DNA of 64,000 bases from NCBI RefSeq assembly GCF_001468465.1, contig NZ_LNSA01000009.1, positions 1 to 64,000 of the forward strand. The letters run 5' to 3'. This document shows, one piece after another, positions 2,639 through 39,465 of the stretch. The stretch is from Sphingopyxis sp. H115 (lineage in GTDB: Bacteria; Pseudomonadota; Alphaproteobacteria; Sphingomonadales; Sphingomonadaceae). Positions within the stretch are counted from its first letter, which is position 1. Each line of letters begins with the position of its first letter. The translations under genes and the position numbers were made by a program. The notes below the pieces were generated by a model. The model made no database searches. It was not told where the DNA came from and saw only the letters and a list, made by a program, of their open reading frames with translations.

Positions 2639-3922
2639 ATGACCGACACCGCGAAAATCACGCTGGGCGACCAGACCGTCGACAGCCCTGTCCTGTCGGG
2701 CACCGTCGGCCCCGATGTGGTCGATATCCGCAAATTCTACGCCCAGACGGGCGCCTTCACCTACGACCCCGGCTTCACCTCGACCGCGAGCTGCGAATCG
2801 CAGATCACCTACATCGACGGCGACGAAGGCGTGCTGCTCCACCGCGGCTATGCGATCGGCGACCTCGCCGAAAATTCGAGCTTCATGGAGGTCTGCTACC
2901 TCCTCCTCAACGGCGAACTGCCCAACGCCGATGAACTCGCGAAATTCGACAACACCATCACGCGCCATACGATGCTGCATGAACAACTCGCGACCTTCTA
3001 CCGCGGTTTCCGCCGCGACGCGCACCCGATGGCGGTGATGTGCGGCGTCGTCGGCGCCTTGAGCGCCTTCTATCACGATTCGACCGAGATCCACGATCCG
3101 CACCAGCGCATGATCGCCAGCCACCGGCTGATCGCGAAAATGCCGACGATCGCGGCGATGGCGTATAAATATTCGGTCGGCCAGCCGTTCGTCTATCCCG
3201 ACAACAAGCTGAGCTACACCGGCAATTTCCTGCGCATGACCTTCGGCGTTCCGGCCGAGGAATATGAGGTCGTCCCCGCCGTCGAACGCGCGCTCGACCG
3301 CATTTTCATCCTCCACGCCGATCACGAACAGAATGCGTCGACCTCGACCGTCCGCCTCGCGGGTTCGTCGGGCGCGAATCCCTTTGCGTGCATCGCCGCG
3401 GGCATCGCCTGCCTGTGGGGCCCGGCGCACGGCGGCGCGAACGAGGCTGCACTCAACATGCTGCGCGAAATCGGCCGTCCCGAACGCATCCCCGAATATA
3501 TCGCGCGCGCAAAGGACAAGGACGATCCGTTCCGCCTGATGGGCTTCGGCCACCGCGTGTACAAGAATTACGACCCGCGCGCGACCGTGATGCAGAAGAC
3601 GGTGCGCGAAGTGTTCGACGCGCTGAAGGTCAACGACCCGGTGTTCGAGGTTGCGCTACAGCTCGAGGAAATGGCGCTCAACGATCCCTATTTCATCGAA
3701 AAGAAGCTGTTCCCCAACGTCGACTTCTATTCGGGCGTGATCCTGTCGGCGATCGGTTTCCCGACGACGATGTTCACCGCGCTCTTCGCGCTCGCACGCA
3801 CCGTCGGCTGGGTCGCGCAGTGGAACGAAATGATCTCCGACCCCGCGCAGAAAATCGGCCGCCCGCGCCAGCTCTACACCGGCCCGACGCACCGCCCGTT
3901 CGTTCCCGTCGACAAGCGCTAA
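2639..3922 (+). CDS. gltA: Citrate synthase (type II)
   Basis: Condenses acetyl-CoA and oxaloacetate to citrate at the entry of the TCA cycle. The 427-residue length and the three catalytic residues fall at the positions known for the hexameric proteobacterial type: His264 in [11 protein letters not shown], His305 in [15 protein letters not shown], and Asp362 in NVDFYSG. AGGGA at 2626-2630 gives a good ribosome site 8 bases before the ATG. It lies 39 bases after gltX, so the two may be co-transcribed, and a strong rho-independent terminator follows the stop codon. Nothing unusual is seen in the coding sequence. Confidence 0.98.
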
Positions 3923-32227: not shown

Positions 32228-32326
32228 GCCCGCCGCATATCGGCTGTCCCGGCGAATGCAAGCCATGCCGGCCGCGCCGCGGACATGGTTACTCTTTGGT
32301 AAGCCATAATCCGTAGAAGCGGGCCG

Positions 32327-32815
32327 ATGGATAGCGGCACGATCTCGCTTGGCCTGATGGCCATACTCGGACTGATGATGATCGCCGCGGCGATCAGCGA
32401 TCTCCGGTCGCGATCCATATCGAACGAACTCAACGCGGCCATCGCATTGCTCGCCATTCCGTTCTGGATCGCCAGCGGCCTCGCCCCGTGGCCCGGGATG
32501 GCGCTCCAGTTCGGCGCCGCCTTTGCGGTCTTTCTGGTCTTCGCCGGATTGTTCGCGGTCGGTGCGATGGGCGGCGGCGACGTGAAAATGATCGGCGCGG
32601 TAATGCTCTGGATCCCGCTTTCCCTGTTCCTGCCGACGCTGATGGTGATGGCCATCGGCGGCGGCATCCTGTCGGCGGTGATGCTTATCCACATGAAATT
32701 GCGCCCTTCGGACAAACCGGTCGAGGTCCCCTATGGGGTCGCGATCGCTGCTGCGGGCCTGTGGGCGCTTCACCAACAATATCTTAACCAGTTTCAGGCT
32801 ATCGGTTCGGCCTGA
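32327..32815 (+). CDS. cpaA: Prepilin peptidase CpaA/TadV-type
   Basis: 162-aa integral membrane aspartic protease of the A24 family that removes leaders from Flp-type pilins. The two catalytic aspartates lie in AAAISDLRSRSISNEL and GAMGGGDVKMIG; about four to five hydrophobic helices surround them. It starts the Tad/Flp pilus locus and is followed by cpaB after 47 bases. Unusually, no pilin gene lies next to it in this window. Confidence 0.93.
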   Translation: MDSGTISLGLMAILGLMMIAAAISDLRSRSISNELNAAIALLAIPFWIASGLAPWPGMALQFGAAFAVFLVFAGLFAVGAMGGGDVKMIGAVMLWIPLSLFLPTLMVMAIGGGILSAVMLIHMKLRPSDKPVEVPYGVAIAAAGLWALHQQYLNQFQAIGSA

Positions 32816-32862
32816 GGGCAAGCACCGCCGTTTCCGGTTGGTGTAGGAGGCGAAAAATCGTC

Positions 32863-33894
32863 ATGGATACGCGAAAGATTATGCTGATCGTCGGCGCGCT
32901 GGTCATTGCGATCGGTGCGGCGTTCGGAGTCAACCAGATGATGCGCGGAGCATCGGCTCCGCCGGCTCGTGCAGCCGCGGCACCGGAAATCACCGGCCCG
33001 ATGATCCTCGTTGCAACGCGGCAGCTGCCGGTGGGCACGATCATCGGCCCCGACAGCTTCCGGTTTCAGCCCTGGCCGAAGGAATTGGTCGAAAAGGCCT
33101 ACTTCATGAAGGACAAGACCGACGTGAACACGTTGGTCGGCACCGTCGTCCGCTATCCGATCACCGCCGGCCAGCCGCTTACGCAGGGCGCACTCGTCCA
33201 TCCCGACGATCGCGGCTTCCTCGCGGCGGCGCTTGGCCCGGGCATGCGTGCCGTGACGGTCAAGGTCAGCCAGGAACAGGGCGTCGCGGGCTTCGTCTTC
33301 CCCGGCGACCGCGTCGACGTGCTGCTTGCCCAGACCATCGAGGTCAAGGAAGGCAGCTCCTATCCGGACGAACAGCTTTTCACCGCCGAAACCATCGTTC
33401 GCAACGTTCGCGTGCTTGCCACCGACCAGCGCTACGATGCCGAGGACGAAACGGGCAAGACCCCGGTTCGCACCTTCGGCTCGGTGACGCTCGAGGCAAC
33501 GCCCGAACTCGCCGAACGCATCGCGGTTGCGCAGAGCATGGGCAAATTGTCGCTCGCGCTCCGTCCGCTCGCGGAAAGCACCGGCGAGCTCGAAGCCGCC
33601 ATCGCATCGGGCGACGTCAATGTTCCCGAAAAGGGCGGTGCAGCGGCCGAACGCCGAATGCTGGCGCAGGCCCAAGCTCGTCCGACGACCGCCAAATCGG
33701 CGACCACCGGCGGCGACGTCTCGCGCTTCTGGGTTCCGGTTGGCGGTCGCGTCGGCGGCGGTGGGCGGCAGCAGCCGCTGGTAAGCAGTGCGCCGATTTC
33801 GGCGTCGGGCAATGGGTCGGCACTCGGTAGCGGGCCAGTCGTTCGCGTGACCCGCGGCGACAAGGTTACCGAAGTCCCGGTTGGGGGTAAGTAA
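32863..33894 (+). CDS. cpaB: Flp pilus assembly protein CpaB (RcpC)
   Basis: 343 aa with an N-terminal membrane segment (LIVGALVIAIGAAFGVNQM), an SAF domain (~45-120: MILVATRQLPVGTIIGPDS, YPITAGQPLTQGALV) and the RcpC/CpaB C-terminal region (QEQGVAGFVFPGDRVDVLL). The last ~60 residues are low-complexity. It is periplasmic and works with the CpaC secretin. AGGAGG lies upstream. The stop codon is directly before the cpaC start (TAAGATG). Confidence 0.94.
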   Translation: MDTRKIMLIVGALVIAIGAAFGVNQMMRGASAPPARAAAAPEITGPMILVATRQLPVGTIIGPDSFRFQPWPKELVEKAYFMKDKTDVNTLVGTVVRYPITAGQPLTQGALVHPDDRGFLAAALGPGMRAVTVKVSQEQGVAGFVFPGDRVDVLLAQTIEVKEGSSYPDEQLFTAETIVRNVRVLATDQRYDAEDETGKTPVRTFGSVTLEATPELAERIAVAQSMGKLSLALRPLAESTGELEAAIASGDVNVPEKGGAAAERRMLAQAQARPTTAKSATTGGDVSRFWVPVGGRVGGGGRQQPLVSSAPISASGNGSALGSGPVVRVTRGDKVTEVPVGGK

Positions 33895-33895
33895 G

Positions 33896-35452
33896 ATGAA
33901 CAGCAAAGCCAATTTCAAGGCGGCCGCCCTGGCGCGCACCCTGGCCATCGGCCTCGTTGCAGCCGCGCTCGTGTCGGCACCGTCGCAGCAGGCTGCGGCG
34001 CAGGCCTCACAGAACGCCAGCAGCAGCATCGACCTGTCGGTCGGTCGCGGACGCCTCATCAGCCTTCCGGCGTCGATGTCGGACGTGTTCGTCGCCGACG
34101 ACAAAGTGGCCGATGTGCAGGTCCGTTCGGGTCGCCAGCTCTATATCTTCGGCAAGGCGCCGGGCGAAACCAGCATCTATGCCACCGACGCCAGCGGCCG
34201 GGTCGTCTATTCGACCGTCGCTCGCGTCGGCAACAATATCGAAACGATCGACCAGATGCTCTCGCTGGCGATGCCCGAGGCGAGCATCTCGGCCAACACG
34301 ATGAACGGCTTTGTGCTGCTCACCGGCACGGTCCAGTCGCCCGACGACGTCGCCGAAGCCGAACTGCTGGTCCAGGCCTTTGTCGGCGAAGGGACGAAAG
34401 TCCTTTCGCGCCTTCGCACCGCGACGCCCCTGCAAGTCAATCTGCAGGTCCGCATCGCCGAAGTGAACCGCACGCTCGTCAAGGAAATCAGCGGCAACCT
34501 GCTGACGCGCGACCGCGACGGTCCGCTCGGCAACGGCTTCCTGGGCGGGGTTTTCGGCGGCCGCTCGGCCGGCGAAATAACCTATCCCAACGCGCCGACC
34601 GCCATTTTCCCGCCGAACACGGTGCCGACGCCCTATAATCCGATTACCGGGCAGCCGATCAACAGCACCACCTTCGGCACGAATTACGGGATATCCACGC
34701 CCGCCGGCATCCGCAGCATCGCGGGCGCCGGGCGCCTCTTCGGGCTCGACCTGATCGCCTCGCTCGACATGGGCGAACGCTCGGGCATGGTCGTGACGCT
34801 CGCGCAGCCGAACCTGACCGCGATTTCGGGCGAGACGGCCGACTTCCTCGCGGGCGGCGAATTCCCGATCCCCATCCCCGGCAATCTTGCCGGCACGACG
34901 ATCGAATATCGCAAATATGGCGTCAGCCTCGCCTATACGCCGACGGTCTTGTCGAACGGCCGCATCAGCCTGCGCGTTCGTCCCGAAGTTTCGGAGCTGT
35001 CGACCGAAGGCGCGATCGAGATGGAAGGCTTCCAAATCCCCGCGCTGACGATCCGCCGTGCCGAAACGACGGTCGAACTCGGTTCGGGCGAAAGCTTCAT
35101 GATCGCCGGCCTGATGAACAATCGCTCGATCGGCGCGATCGACAAGATGCCCGGCCTCGGCGACGTTCCGCTGCTCGGCACCCTGTTCAAATCGGACAAT
35201 TTCCGCCGCGGCGAGACCGAGTTGGTGATCGTGGTGACGCCCTATCTCGTCAACCCGGTCTCGGCGAACGACATCAAGCTGCCGACCGACGCCTATCAGA
35301 ATTCGAACGATATCGCGCGCCTCCTGCTCAACCAGGAAAGCAACGGCGTGACGGGCGGCGACCGGCCGAAGCCGCGTCTCGACACCGACGTCGGCGATGC
35401 CGACCGCCCGCGGGGCACCGGCGACGCATCGCCCGGCTTCAGCATCAAGTGA
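33896..35452 (+). CDS. cpaC: Flp pilus secretin CpaC (RcpA)
   Basis: 518-aa outer-membrane secretin of the Tad pilus. A Sec leader (to ~AAAQA near 40) is followed by the pilus-secretin N-domain (IDLSVGRGRLISLPASMSDV), a ring-forming domain (~110-160) and the secretin barrel (~220-470) ending with the hallmark PLLGTLFKSDNFRRGETELV. I start at ATG 33896 with GGGGGT upstream; the in-frame codon at 33881 lies inside cpaB. Terminal residues after ~480 are charged and probably disordered. Confidence 0.95.
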   Translation: MNSKANFKAAALARTLAIGLVAAALVSAPSQQAAAQASQNASSSIDLSVGRGRLISLPASMSDVFVADDKVADVQVRSGRQLYIFGKAPGETSIYATDASGRVVYSTVARVGNNIETIDQMLSLAMPEASISANTMNGFVLLTGTVQSPDDVAEAELLVQAFVGEGTKVLSRLRTATPLQVNLQVRIAEVNRTLVKEISGNLLTRDRDGPLGNGFLGGVFGGRSAGEITYPNAPTAIFPPNTVPTPYNPITGQPINSTTFGTNYGISTPAGIRSIAGAGRLFGLDLIASLDMGERSGMVVTLAQPNLTAISGETADFLAGGEFPIPIPGNLAGTTIEYRKYGVSLAYTPTVLSNGRISLRVRPEVSELSTEGAIEMEGFQIPALTIRRAETTVELGSGESFMIAGLMNNRSIGAIDKMPGLGDVPLLGTLFKSDNFRRGETELVIVVTPYLVNPVSANDIKLPTDAYQNSNDIARLLLNQESNGVTGGDRPKPRLDTDVGDADRPRGTGDASPGFSIK

Positions 35453-35477
35453 CGCGCTGGATTTCAGGAGCAAAGTG

Positions 35478-36122
35478 ATGAAGAAAATCGCAACTTGGAC
35501 GATCCTGGCTCTGGCCACGTCGCTCGCTGGATGCACGGGCGCCGCCTATAGCAACACCAGCCTCGAATCGGTGCACCAGCCGGTCGTGCGCAACAACATC
35601 TATCAGTTCGATGTCGCGCTCTCGAACGGCGAACTCGCCCCCAGCGAACAGGGCCGCCTGCAGGGCTGGCTCGACGCCATGGGCGTTCGCTACGGCGACC
35701 GCATCGCGATCGAGGATCCGTCGGTCTATGGCTCCGGTTCGGCGCAGGCCACGGTCCGTTCCATGGTCGGACGCCGCGGGCTGCTGCTGAGCGACGACGT
35801 CCCGGTCACCACCGGCGCCGTGCCGCAAGGCTATATGCGCGTGGTCGTCACGCGCGCCACGGCCTCGGTTCCCGGCTGCCCCAATTGGGACAGCAAATCG
35901 GCGATCAACATCACCAACTCGACTTCGTCCAACTATGGCTGCGCGACGAACAGCAACCTCGCCGCCATGGTTGCCGACCCGAACGATCTGATCAAGGGCG
36001 CCAGCAGCAACCGGACCGACCCGTCCGCAGCGACGCGCGCGATCAAGACCTATCGCGAAAAGCCGCAGACCGGTGCCGGCGATCTGAAATCGTCGGCGAC
36101 CAGCAAGGAGGACAGCCAGTGA
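35478..36122 (+). CDS. cpaD: Pilus assembly lipoprotein CpaD
   Basis: 214 aa with a lipoprotein leader (TILALATSLAGC) and the CpaD-type core (GRLQGWLDAMGVRYGDRIAI, PQGYMRVVVTRATASVPGCPNW), typically the outer-membrane pilotin-like partner of the CpaC secretin. The pair CPNW ... GCATNSNLAAMVADPNDLI is characteristic of the family. CAGGAG is a good ribosome site. The TGA overlaps the cpaE start codon by 4 bases (GTGA). Confidence 0.92.
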   Translation: MKKIATWTILALATSLAGCTGAAYSNTSLESVHQPVVRNNIYQFDVALSNGELAPSEQGRLQGWLDAMGVRYGDRIAIEDPSVYGSGSAQATVRSMVGRRGLLLSDDVPVTTGAVPQGYMRVVVTRATASVPGCPNWDSKSAINITNSTSSNYGCATNSNLAAMVADPNDLIKGASSNRTDPSAATRAIKTYREKPQTGAGDLKSSATSKEDSQ

Positions 36123-37393
36123 ACGCCCCTTTCAAAATGGCCGGACTGCGTGACCCCTTCAACGCCTTCGTCTGCGACGACGATACGCTGGAGCTGATCC
36201 GGGCAGCAGCGAACGAGATGGGTTGGCCCGTCGAAAAGTGCAACAAGGGCGGCCTGCGCAACGCGGTGCAGTCGCTCTCGGTGTCGGCCAGCCCCAACAT
36301 CCTTTTCGTCGACATGTCGGAATCGGGTGACCCGATCAACGACATCAACGCGCTTGCCGAAGTCTGCGAACCCGGCACGGTCGTGATTGCCGCGGGCCAG
36401 GTGAACGACGTTCGCCTGTATCGCGATCTTCTGTCGAGCGGAATCCAGGACTATCTGCTCAAGCCGTTGTCGCTCGAACAGGTGCGCGAATCGCTGACCA
36501 TGGCGCAGGCCATGCTGTCGGCGCCGAAGCACGCCGACATGCATGACGACAAACCGCACCATATGATGGCGGTCGTCGGCGTGCGCGGCGGCGTCGGCGC
36601 ATCGCTCGTGTCGACCTCGCTTGCCTGGGCGATCAGCGAACAGGCCGGGCGCCAGACTGCGCTGCTCGACCTCGACGTCCACTTCGGCACGGGCGCGTTG
36701 ACGCTCGACCTCGAACCCGGACGCGGCCTGATCGACGCGATCGACAATCCCAGTCGCATCGATGGCCTGTTCATCGAGCGCGCGATGGTGCGCGCGTCGG
36801 ACAAGCTCAGCCTGCTGTCGGCCGAAGCTCCGATCCACCAGCCGGTGATGACCGACGGTTCGGCCTTTTTCCAGTTGGAAGAAGAACTGCGGGGCGCGTT
36901 CGAAATGACGATCGTCGACCTTCCCCGCCAGGTGCTGATCCCCTTCCCGCACCTCGTGTCGGAAGTCGGAACGATCCTGCTCGTCAGCGATGTGACGCTC
37001 GCTGCGGCCCGCGACACCATCCGCTTGCTGTCATGGTTCAAACAGAATGTCCCGGGCGCCCGCGTGGTGCTGGTGGCAAACAAGTTCCAGAATGCGGTCG
37101 GCGAATTGTCGCGCAAGGAATTCGAATCCTCGATCGAACGCCAGATCGACATCGTCGTTCCGTTCGATCCGAAACTGGTGAGCCAGTCGGCCAAGCTCGG
37201 CAAATCCTATGCCGAAATCTGCAAGGGCACGAAATCGGCGCAGGTGTGGAACAATCTGACGCGGCTGATCCTCGACGGCGCCGACATCGAAGCCGAAGAG
37301 GCCCAGGCAGCGACGGCAAAGGGCAAGTCGGGCGGGTCGCTGCTCGGCAAGCTCGGCCTGATGACAAAGAAGGGCGCGAAACAGGCGGCGTGA
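36119..37393 (+). CDS. cpaE: Pilus assembly ATPase-like protein CpaE (TadZ)
   Basis: 424 aa. The N-terminal ~130 residues resemble a receiver-like domain without the usual phosphorylation site pattern; residues ~140-400 form a ParA/MinD-type ATPase with a deviant Walker A, VVGVRGGVGASLVSTSLAW, as is usual for CpaE. TadZ/CpaE positions the Tad apparatus at the cell pole. GTG 36119 with AGGAGG upstream is the start, overlapping cpaD by 4 bases. In typical clusters the next gene is cpaF, which is absent here. Confidence 0.93.
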   Translation: MNAPFKMAGLRDPFNAFVCDDDTLELIRAAANEMGWPVEKCNKGGLRNAVQSLSVSASPNILFVDMSESGDPINDINALAEVCEPGTVVIAAGQVNDVRLYRDLLSSGIQDYLLKPLSLEQVRESLTMAQAMLSAPKHADMHDDKPHHMMAVVGVRGGVGASLVSTSLAWAISEQAGRQTALLDLDVHFGTGALTLDLEPGRGLIDAIDNPSRIDGLFIERAMVRASDKLSLLSAEAPIHQPVMTDGSAFFQLEEELRGAFEMTIVDLPRQVLIPFPHLVSEVGTILLVSDVTLAAARDTIRLLSWFKQNVPGARVVLVANKFQNAVGELSRKEFESSIERQIDIVVPFDPKLVSQSAKLGKSYAEICKGTKSAQVWNNLTRLILDGADIEAEEAQAATAKGKSGGSLLGKLGLMTKKGAKQAA

Positions 37394-37411
37394 CGACCCC
37401 TGACGGGTCGT
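37393..37411 (+). other. Hairpin between cpaE and tadB
   Basis: Seven-bp stem ACGACCC / GGGTCGT with loop CTGAC, starting at the last base of the cpaE stop codon and without a T-tract. It may cause partial termination or RNA processing. It sits at the position where cpaF is normally found. Confidence 0.5.
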
Positions 37412-37448
37412 AACCTCCTCCAGCGATAGAAGCGGACATCAGCCGATC

Positions 37449-38420
37449 ATGAATCTGCCAGTCATCCTTATCATCGCGGCGGCCTTCCTGGCCTTTGCCC
37501 TCCTCGTCGTCCTGCTTGGCGGCCCTTCGGCCGGCAAGGCAAAGACACGGCGGCTGGCGATGGTCCGCGATCGCCACGCGGCATCGACCGAAGCGGTCGT
37601 CGCGGCGCAGATGCGCAAGACGATCCAGTCGGCCGGCGGCAAGGGCGAAATCGCGCTGACCAGCCTGCTGCCGCGCCGCGAGGAGCTGGAAAAGCGGATA
37701 CGTCGCACCGGCAAGGGCTGGACGCTGACCCAATATATGTTCGCATCGATGGCGCTTTTCGTGGTCGTCACCGGCGGCATGCTGGCGGTCCGCGCGCCGA
37801 TGCTCATGGCGGGTCTCGTCGGGTTGATGCTCAGCCTCGGCCTGCCTTATTTGATCGTCGGTCGCGCGATCAAGAAACGGGTTGCCCAATTCAATACCCG
37901 CTTTCCCGACGCGATCGACCTGCTCGTCCGCGGCCTCAAATCCGGCCTGCCGGTTACCGAGACCTTCCAGGTCGTGAGCCAGGAACTGCCGGGGCCCGTG
38001 GGCGAAGAATTCAAGGGCGTCGTCGAACGCATCCGTATCGGCAACACGATGGAAGCCGCGCTTCAGGAATCGGCAGATATGCTGGGCACTCCCGAATTCC
38101 AGTTCTTCTGCATCACGATCGCGATCCAGCGTGAAACCGGCGGCAATCTTGCCGAAACCTTGGCGAACCTGTCCGACGTGCTCCGCAAGCGCGCGCAAAT
38201 GAAGCTGAAGATCCGCGCCATGTCGTCGGAAGCGAAGGCTTCGGCCTATATCGTCGGCGCGCTGCCCTTTTTCGTTTTCGGCGTCGTCTGGTCGATGAAC
38301 CCCGAATATCTCTCGGGCTTTTTCCATGAACAACGTCTCATCATCGCCGGTGTCGGCGGCCTGATCTGGATGAGCATCGGCGCCGGGATCATGGCCAAGA
38401 TGATCAGCTTCGAAATCTGA
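37449..38420 (+). CDS. tadB: Tad pilus inner-membrane platform protein TadB
   Basis: 323 aa, type II secretion system F-domain protein. Membrane helices at ~4-24, ~95-135 and ~270-310; the GspF core is FNTRFPDAIDLLVRGLKSGLPV ... QRETGGNLAETLANLSDVLRKR. With TadC it forms the inner-membrane base on which the CpaF motor would act. The ribosome site is weak (AAGCGG), unlike the strong ones of the preceding genes. 55 bases separate it from cpaE. Confidence 0.93.
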   Translation: MNLPVILIIAAAFLAFALLVVLLGGPSAGKAKTRRLAMVRDRHAASTEAVVAAQMRKTIQSAGGKGEIALTSLLPRREELEKRIRRTGKGWTLTQYMFASMALFVVVTGGMLAVRAPMLMAGLVGLMLSLGLPYLIVGRAIKKRVAQFNTRFPDAIDLLVRGLKSGLPVTETFQVVSQELPGPVGEEFKGVVERIRIGNTMEAALQESADMLGTPEFQFFCITIAIQRETGGNLAETLANLSDVLRKRAQMKLKIRAMSSEAKASAYIVGALPFFVFGVVWSMNPEYLSGFFHEQRLIIAGVGGLIWMSIGAGIMAKMISFEI

Positions 38421-38433
38421 AGGGGCAAAATCC

Positions 38434-39465
38434 GTGAACAGCAGCCTCCTTCTTTCCTCGGCCTTTACGGGAGCCCAGAGCGGCCCCACGCTGCTCGGCA
38501 TCGACGTCGTATGGGCCGGGACCGCGCTCGCCGCAGTCGGCGTCTTCGCGGTGCTGTTTGCCATCTACAACGCGCTGACCGTCCGCAACCCGATGACCAA
38601 ACGCGTCAAGGCGCTCAACGACCGCCGCGAACAGCTCAAGGCCGGCATCACCGCCTCGACCGCCAAGCGCCGCGCCAAGCTGGTCCGCAAGAACCAGCAT
38701 GCGGACAAGATGCGCAGCGTCCTCGGCAAGCTCCAGGTGCTGCAGGAAGAACAGATCAAGGATGTGCAGCAAAAGCTGGCGCAGGCGGGTATCCGATCGA
38801 AAGACCTGGCCGTCGCGGTTATCTTTGGTCGCATGGTCCTGCCCGTCGTTTTTGGCGGCGTCGCGGCCTTCCTCATCTATTGGGTCGACATGTGGCCGAC
38901 GCTGACTCCGATGAAGCGCTCGGGCTTCACGATGGCGATGCTCGTCCTCGGCTACAAGGCGCCCGACCTGTTCGTCGAGAACAAGCGGTCCAAGCGGACC
39001 GACGCGATCCGCAAGGGCCTTCCCGATGCGCTCGACCTGCTCGTGATCTGCGCCGAGGCCGGCCTGACGGTCGACTCCGCCTTCGCCCGCGTATCGAAGG
39101 AACTCGGCCGCGCCTATCCCGAACTGGGCGAGGAATTCGCGCTGACGTCGATCGAACTGGGCTTCCTGACCGAACGCCGCCAGGCGTTCGAAAATCTGGC
39201 CTATCGCGTGAACCTGGAATCGGTGAAGGGCGTCGTCACGACGATGATCCAGACCGAAAAATACGGGACGCCGCTCGCCTCGGCGCTGCGCGTGCTGTCA
39301 GCCGAATTCCGTAACGAACGCATGATGCGCGCCGAGGAAAAGGCCGCGCGCCTGCCGGCAATCATGACGGTGCCGCTGATCCTGTTCATCCTGCCGGTGC
39401 TGTTCATCGTGATCCTCGGGCCCGCGGCCTGCTCGCTCAAGGACGCGCTCGTCGATACGATGTAA
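38434..39465 (+). CDS. tadC: Tad pilus inner-membrane platform protein TadC
   Basis: 343 aa, second GspF-domain platform protein, with the core RKGLPDALDLLVICAEAGLTV, IELGFLTERRQAFENLAYRV and TEKYGTPLASALRVLS, and a C-terminal membrane helix (LILFILPVLFIVILGPAA). GTG 38434 with AAGGGG upstream is the start, 13 bases after tadB. It is the last gene of the locus here; TadD/TPR, TadE-G pseudopilin and pilin genes do not follow. Confidence 0.93.
   Translation: MNSSLLLSSAFTGAQSGPTLLGIDVVWAGTALAAVGVFAVLFAIYNALTVRNPMTKRVKALNDRREQLKAGITASTAKRRAKLVRKNQHADKMRSVLGKLQVLQEEQIKDVQQKLAQAGIRSKDLAVAVIFGRMVLPVVFGGVAAFLIYWVDMWPTLTPMKRSGFTMAMLVLGYKAPDLFVENKRSKRTDAIRKGLPDALDLLVICAEAGLTVDSAFARVSKELGRAYPELGEEFALTSIELGFLTERRQAFENLAYRVNLESVKGVVTTMIQTEKYGTPLASALRVLSAEFRNERMMRAEEKAARLPAIMTVPLILFILPVLFIVILGPAACSLKDALVDTM

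Follow-up and report, generated by a model that had tools for sequence, protein, structure and literature searches.

The Tad/Flp pilus locus of Sphingopyxis sp. H115

The window analyzed here, a stretch of 64,000 nucleotides (C9:1-64000) from the 4.49 Mb, 63-contig assembly of Sphingopyxis sp. H115, carries a run of seven genes for a Tad/Flp pilus, cpaA, cpaB, cpaC, cpaD, cpaE, tadB and tadC (Table 1; G, C and L numbers denote genomes, contigs and loci). A sequence-only reading of this DNA had described the seven genes as apparently intact and had noted that the motor ATPase gene cpaF, the pilin gene and tadE-G were missing, with a 55-base gap and a small hairpin in the place of cpaF. Each of these observations held. 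All seven genes are open frames on the forward strand with the expected domains; the domain scores of CpaE are weak, but its position ahead of tadB is kept in 80 of 80 named-record loci of the family described below. TadB and TadC each consist of a single T2SSF stretch, and TadB gave a 98% match to that of Sphingopyxis sp. JAI128. Profile searches of the whole genome with the T2SSE, Flp_Fap, TadE and Tad families returned no match on C9, and hence cpaF, Flp and TadE/G are truly absent from the locus. The gap between cpaE and tadB spans positions 37394-37448 (55 nt) and holds a 7-bp stem. The locus very probably supplies the envelope parts and the platform of a Tad/Flp (type IVc) pilus with scattered genes, a reading graded jointly with the displacement of the motor discussed below.

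Table 1. Genes of the Tad locus, the cpaE-tadB hairpin and free-standing (solo) cpaF loci.
Feature	Location	Strand	Basis
cpaA, prepilin peptidase	32327..32815	+	Peptidase_A24, E 1.6e-14
cpaB / rcpC	32863..33894	+	RcpC/TIGR03177, E 1.6e-63, above cut-off
cpaC, secretin	33896..35452	+	Secretin, E 4e-38; T2SS-T3SS_pil_N (pilus N-terminal region), E 3e-22; start inferred, ATG at 33896
cpaD, lipoprotein	35478..36122	+	Pilus_CpaD, E 7e-51; start inferred, ATG at 35478
cpaE / tadZ, MinD-like	36119..37393	+	MinD/ParA/Ssd-like matches, all below cut-offs; start inferred, GTG overlapping cpaD stop
7-bp hairpin, directly after cpaE stop, where other families have cpaF	37393-37411	+	sequence reading
tadB / cpaG, inner-membrane platform	37449..38420	+	T2SSF, E 1e-26
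tadC / cpaH, inner-membrane platform	38434..39465	+	T2SSF, E 1e-18
Solo cpaF, TadA/CpaF-type ATPase	C2:232781-234313		TIGR03819, E 1e-97, best model, below its cut-off
Solo cpaF with DUF6812 gene, other genomes	G053 C14 (L225); G002 C263 (L226); G014 C260 (L082); G016 C36 (L083); G007 C2 (L316); G028 C42 (L320)		

Location of the missing components

The T2SSE family (PF00437) finds four proteins in the genome, on C2, C46, C5 and C4, and by best NCBIfam model the first alone is of the TadA type, that on C46 being GspE and those on C5 and C4 TrbB. The C2 protein is encoded by a 511-codon frame, and its residues 34-496 (of 498 given) align to the solved CpaF structure 9e24 (E 1e-138); it retains the P-loop GGTGSGKTT together with other motor motifs. 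Its gene lies just downstream of atpC, at the end of a series reading as atpH-A-G-D-C (atpC by NCBIfam). Between atpC and cpaF, a G+C-rich palindrome followed by a T run was read by eye; the palindrome is absent from the output of a consensus terminator scan, and one weak promoter-like site is listed in the same interval. The C2 cpaF is thus likely to be transcribed separately from atpC, from a predicted promoter of its own.

Two tandem Flp pilins, one above and one just below the Pfam cut-off, are encoded on C21 and have the expected short leader and EY motif, the latter within TA(V/I)EYGLI. In both (L016 8144-8629), the presumed cleavage-site region reads Ala-Ala-Thr-Ala-(Val/Ile)-Glu-Tyr, with Ala at the position where the Flp pilin consensus has Gly. 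Genes for TadE and a TadG-like protein were found on C29, and for TadE on C1, which holds a second TadE/TadG-like pair (L017 5861-7986) apart from that on C29; a TadF was not identified. Genome-wide, the components present are the motor, two platform proteins, the secretin CpaC, CpaB/RcpC, CpaD, CpaE, Flp pilin and TadE/TadG. They do not share the single locus that is usual for, but does not define, a Tad system, being distributed over C9, C2, C21, C29 and C1. The sequence-only reading had left two choices, namely that cpaF and the pilins are elsewhere or that the locus has lost its motor. The search of the whole genome for cpaF/tadA and flp genes that it recommended located both, on contigs other than C9, in favor of the first; the single CpaF homolog on C2, alignable over nearly its whole range, and the presence of pilins and TadE/TadG speak against the second.

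The same components, a secretin, RcpC/CpaB, CpaD, CpaE, two single-T2SSF proteins, CpaF, Flp and TadE/TadG, make up the Tad/Flp system of Caulobacter crescentus (cpaA-F, with tadB/tadC as cpaG/cpaH). Compared with that system, the Sphingopyxis genes are spread over five contigs and the motor comes from a CpaF clade other than the cluster's own. A superfamily survey describes Tad systems as almost exclusively encoded at single loci (PMC6668835); the loci surveyed have the Tad components and a TadB/TadC pair, as here, and the main text of the survey contains no word beginning with "Sphingo." The layout found here can be seen in the gene numbers of an expression table for Sphingopyxis granuli TFA, with cpaABCDEtadBC at 1907-1901, Flp at 3632, tadGE1E2 at 0765-0767 and cpaF at 3775; cpaA follows flagellar genes in that strain, and all of these pilus genes are repressed in anoxia, 4- to 13-fold (PMC6472365). 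The passages concerned list the genes as co-regulated and say nothing on layout or evolution (PMC6472365). Such co-repression of scattered genes agrees with their forming a single machine encoded at several sites. In Sphingomonas melonis Fr1, genes for the Flp pilus and for motility are reported to fall together after stress (PMC6599016). Among the matches listed from the open-licence literature, as judged by title and beginning of abstract, none concerned the organization of sphingomonad Tad systems or motor displacement.

That the machine is degenerate, its locus having lost the motor and pili no longer being made, could be argued from the lack of cpaF in or next to the locus. This can hardly be credited, however, with seven open genes in a run that recurs in relatives, a near-full-length CpaF homolog, pilins and TadE/TadG elsewhere in the genome, and the S. 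granuli counterparts being expressed and regulated together (PMC6472365).

A cpaE-tadB junction without cpaF throughout the family

Comparison of the cpaE-tadB junction with those of other Sphingopyxis and same-family genomes, which the earlier reading had proposed as a check, found it without cpaF in all of the loci and genomes counted next. A first set comprised the best 80 of 136 loci of named records (3.5-21 kb), which were found from the window's TadB such that near relatives are favored, with titles naming Sphingopyxis, Sphingomonas, Sphingobium, Novosphingobium, Qipengyuania, Altererythrobacter and others. None of the 80 gave a match to cpaF or flp (tblastn, E 0.001), and the order cpaA-B-C-D-E-tadB-tadC was kept among the genes found, a few loci being cut by contig ends. 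Three genes match in pieces in L163 and one in L168; those of L163 (Sphingopyxis sp. PET50), cpaE, tadB and tadC, are fragmentary in a frame-shift-like manner, through either assembly error or decay. In whole genomes, cpaE adjoins tadB without cpaF in all 92 that were read, that of strain H115 and 91 others of the family. The 92 are the sum of 30 (strain H115 included), two (L288 and L289) and 60, the last being among the lowest-scoring TadB matches listed, and the 91 may share species with the named records. Viewed from the motor, no match to cpaE or tadB lies within 1.5 kb of cpaF in the 30 best CpaF loci, again with the own locus included.

A solo-type CpaF score and a matching TadB score occur together in 153 of 163 same-family genomes. 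The remaining ten are G053, which has a solo cpaF and a canonical cluster, four genomes with a divergent in-cluster system only (G105, G121, G155 and G245), and five with neither (G133, G201, G233, G238 and G241). Two other members of the family, G050 (C1:2317509-2319075) and G094 (C1:353184-355074), have an extra, divergent tad cluster retaining its own cpaF.

The pilin genes are likewise remote from the cluster. Of 39 genomes searched, one (G110) was left out as the place of its TadB was not listed, and in the other 38 flp lies at the nearest 47 kb from tadB, on another contig in 12, and as a tandem pair in 34. Solo cpaF and the cluster share a contig in 85 of 149 genomes and come no closer than 30 kb. 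Where the genome is a single contig (28 cases), the two lie somewhat closer together than a uniform distribution would give (Kolmogorov-Smirnov p 0.014, the genomes not being independent), a result not used here as support.

Outside the family, the junction holds cpaF. A set of 30 CpaF loci contained 21 cluster loci from other families of the order, six solo loci (L079-L083 and L087) and three divergent in-cluster loci of same-family genomes. The arrangement cpaE-cpaF-tadB was present in 20 of the 21 clusters, the last being cut by a contig end before cpaE, and in 26 of 28 loci from the rest of the class, where one is cut by a contig end and one shows cpaF alone. Of eight outgroup genomes, seven have flp at a distance of 6-7 kb from the in-cluster cpaF, and G006 has it 28 kb away.

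The junction without cpaF is thus a family-wide exception and not a damaged locus, and its occurrence across the family argues against a recent loss. The earlier reading had allowed that, if cpaF were at another site in all relatives, nothing had been lost here. The first part of this stood, in 80 of 80 named-record loci and 91 of 91 further genomes of the family. The second did not: an old loss is indicated by the presence of cpaF at this junction outside the family and by the fact that the present cpaF is another paralog.

Ancestry of the motor and the platform

Phylogenies of CpaF were built from three overlapping sets of 86, 48 and 38 rows, and in all three the solo and in-cluster proteins fall on opposite sides of one branch with a Shimodaira-Hasegawa-like approximate likelihood ratio test (SH-aLRT) value of 100. 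G053 and G002, the latter a member of another family, group together by their in-cluster CpaF (support 93). Constraining 13 core-family solo proteins to group with the in-cluster CpaF of G053 gave a tree 175 log units worse (approximately unbiased, AU, test p 2e-45). A second constraint, which united the core solo proteins with every in-cluster CpaF from the order in that tree, was also rejected (p 9e-06); this one also splits the solo clade and so is not a clean test. Solo CpaF is, on these sequence trees, a separate clade and not a descendant of the cluster's own cpaF. In a TadB tree of 35 rows, the clusters lacking cpaF are sister to the canonical cluster of G053 (100/99) and then to that of G002 (87/91), within the order. 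With the solo CpaF clade separate and TadB nested among canonical clusters, the platform would have been inherited with the cluster and the motor would not.

These trees bear directly on simple relocation, according to which the cluster's own cpaF moved once, as the same paralog, to a site after atpC in the family ancestor. A single common site is plausible: among 38 cpaF loci from the core family, 18 have atpC no more than 6 kb upstream in the same orientation, and seven of these no more than 400 bp upstream (the 38 being mostly one per genus, and the other two of the 40 being G053 and G002). Relocation is nevertheless unlikely, as in-cluster CpaF, whether from G053 or from elsewhere in the order, is not the sister group of the solo proteins, the AU test rejects that grouping, and G053 has both kinds of cpaF.

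Five genomes that stand at the base of the family or outside it, namely G053, G002, G016, G028 and G014, have both solo and in-cluster cpaF, the in-cluster copy of G014 being truncated where its contig ends. In G007 an in-cluster cpaF is accompanied by a broken solo copy. A gene of the DUF6812 family directly follows solo cpaF in these same six genomes, all of them outside the core family (Table 1). None of the others among the 42 genomes searched showed it there, and it was not found in the 27 core-family genomes of that set, strain H115 included. The DUF6812 proteins of two of the six show faint similarity to Hfq-type families (E 0.03-0.09). An extra short gene precedes solo cpaF in G002, G014 and G016, the versions of the latter two being alike. 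Beyond the order, 27 of 337 genomes of the class match DUF6812 at E 0.001, 13 of them above the cut-off, and the 20 such loci that were fetched have no cpaF within 1.5 kb flanks; in one locus of another order (L325, G410), a DUF6812-like gene adjoins a TadG-like gene, with cpaF not nearby. DUF6812 is named in no paper of the open-licence literature searched.

Since solo cpaF stands with DUF6812 in genomes whose Tad cluster has its own cpaF, it would once have had a role of its own. It might then be supposed that solo CpaF still has another primary job, with TadB/TadC lacking a dedicated motor or sharing GspE or TrbB, and its pairing with DUF6812 in six non-core genomes, beside a Tad cluster having its own cpaF, is in keeping with this. 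In the core family, however, DUF6812 was not found in 27 of 27 genomes and CpaF co-occurs with the cluster lacking cpaF. The gspE locus of strain H115 reads as a secretion locus, and the surroundings of its two trbB genes (L006 7389-8411 on C5 and L007 7693-8670 on C4) read as conjugation loci. The supposition is, accordingly, very improbable.

Proposed displacement of the Tad motor

The reading preferred here, with a probability of roughly 0.8, is a paralogous displacement of the Tad motor in the ancestor of the family, leaving a machine that is now assembled in trans. An early member of the order would have possessed two paralogs of CpaF, a cluster copy and a free-standing one beside a DUF6812 gene. 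The cluster copy would then have disappeared from between cpaE and tadB in the ancestor of the core family, where the free-standing cpaF would also have lost its DUF6812 neighbor and come to lie after atpC. A second copy would thus have come first, coexistence next and the in-cluster loss last. Solo CpaF would now power the TadB/TadC platform in trans, probably from its own promoter. The roles of CpaF, TadB/TadC and CpaA in pilus assembly are those of the known Tad system, and on this basis the cluster would supply the secretin, alignment parts and platform, and CpaF made from its own site would dock on TadB/TadC and polymerize Flp pilins trimmed by CpaA.

Several points weigh against this proposal. 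The assemblies of G002, G014 and G016 run to 190-800 contigs. For CpaF, the trees are of the "quick" kind and had long branches flagged, and the groups tested were named after the first tree had been inspected; the trees are also unrooted, and the solo clade may have arisen through duplication within the order, at an earlier stage, or by transfer. The TadB score classes are continuous (weakest core genome 1.7e-99, G053 8.7e-92), and the 153 genomes were classed by score, with 92 read. One core genome, G114 (C1:1624096-1625617; L087 and L227), has solo cpaF in two frames with TadB open, which may be an assembly error or point to a dispensable or broken motor. The order of the losses is inferred, and the assignment of solo CpaF as the motor of this platform, also an inference, draws on there being no other TadA-type candidate, on the joint occurrence of the two and on shared regulation in a single relative. 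The analysis establishes the presence, integrity and conservation of the parts and the separate ancestry of the motor.

Type IVa pili use two motors, PilB and PilT. By a more tentative and rather doubtful extension of motor displacement, early members of the order may have had a two-motor Tad system, in which cluster CpaF and solo CpaF/DUF6812 served perhaps extension and retraction or another task, and of which the core family would have kept only the second motor.

The cpaE-tadB hairpin and other candidate signals

The hairpin was considered as a conserved RNA element and rejected as such, its fold energies being little better than those of controls: over 77 junctions the gap has a median z of -0.9, with 23% under -2, compared to -0.45 for the cpaA-cpaB gap, -0.84 for coding DNA inside cpaE and -3.0 for the 60 nt after tadC. 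Many relatives do have a stem after the cpaE stop, with changes in its letters. Across 19 Sphingopyxis junctions, 76% of cells are paired in the stem, a value reached by 3 of 500 shuffles and far above that of slid versions; three pairs are changed on both sides, no better than shuffles (237 of 500). The 19 comprise the window's own junction and 18 of 24 distinct gaps of 54-60 nt, those dropped being two near-duplicates (L115 and L118), two of different sequence (L129 and L131), one longer (L142) and one close to the window's own (L109), and with a set so selected the covariation count leans towards the stem. Support for conservation of the hairpin is thus moderate at most, and its putative function may be to trim or stabilize the upstream message.

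A motif shared by the regions before cpaA and tadB, TAGAAGCGGRC, was also discarded. Its core, AGAAGCGG, stands before tadB in 27 of 43 Sphingopyxis loci and before cpaA in one of 42, the nearest relative, and the cpaA match is therefore taken as chance. The sequence GGTTACTCTTTGGTAAGCC at 32287-32305, upstream of cpaA, recurs with few changes in 14 Sphingopyxis loci, and a partly similar stretch precedes tadG; it is a possible candidate for a shared regulator site. CtrA-like sites have the form TTAA-N7-TTAA. With up to two mismatches they occur in four of six upstream regions of the scattered genes, with none before cpaA or the first flp gene. The window has 42 such sites when both strands are counted (a background of 0.13 per 200 nt, uncorrected for local A+T), and the sites are a lead only.

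Implications for Tad pili

Tad pili have been described as one-locus, one-motor machines, and a structural study describes them as using one bifunctional ATPase (PMC12019362). In the family described here, the parts from which the machine is assembled are encoded at dispersed sites. This dispersal could already be seen in the S. granuli table, and it is the exchange of the motor that was unexpected. For surveys, the family serves as a warning in that a Tad system without an in-cluster cpaF would be called broken. If the two-motor arrangement considered above were true, the five genomes with both copies would be its living examples. For the family itself, the trees indicate that the motor was swapped for a distant paralog with the platform kept, which would make these bacteria a natural experiment on the motor surfaces that TadB and TadC need.

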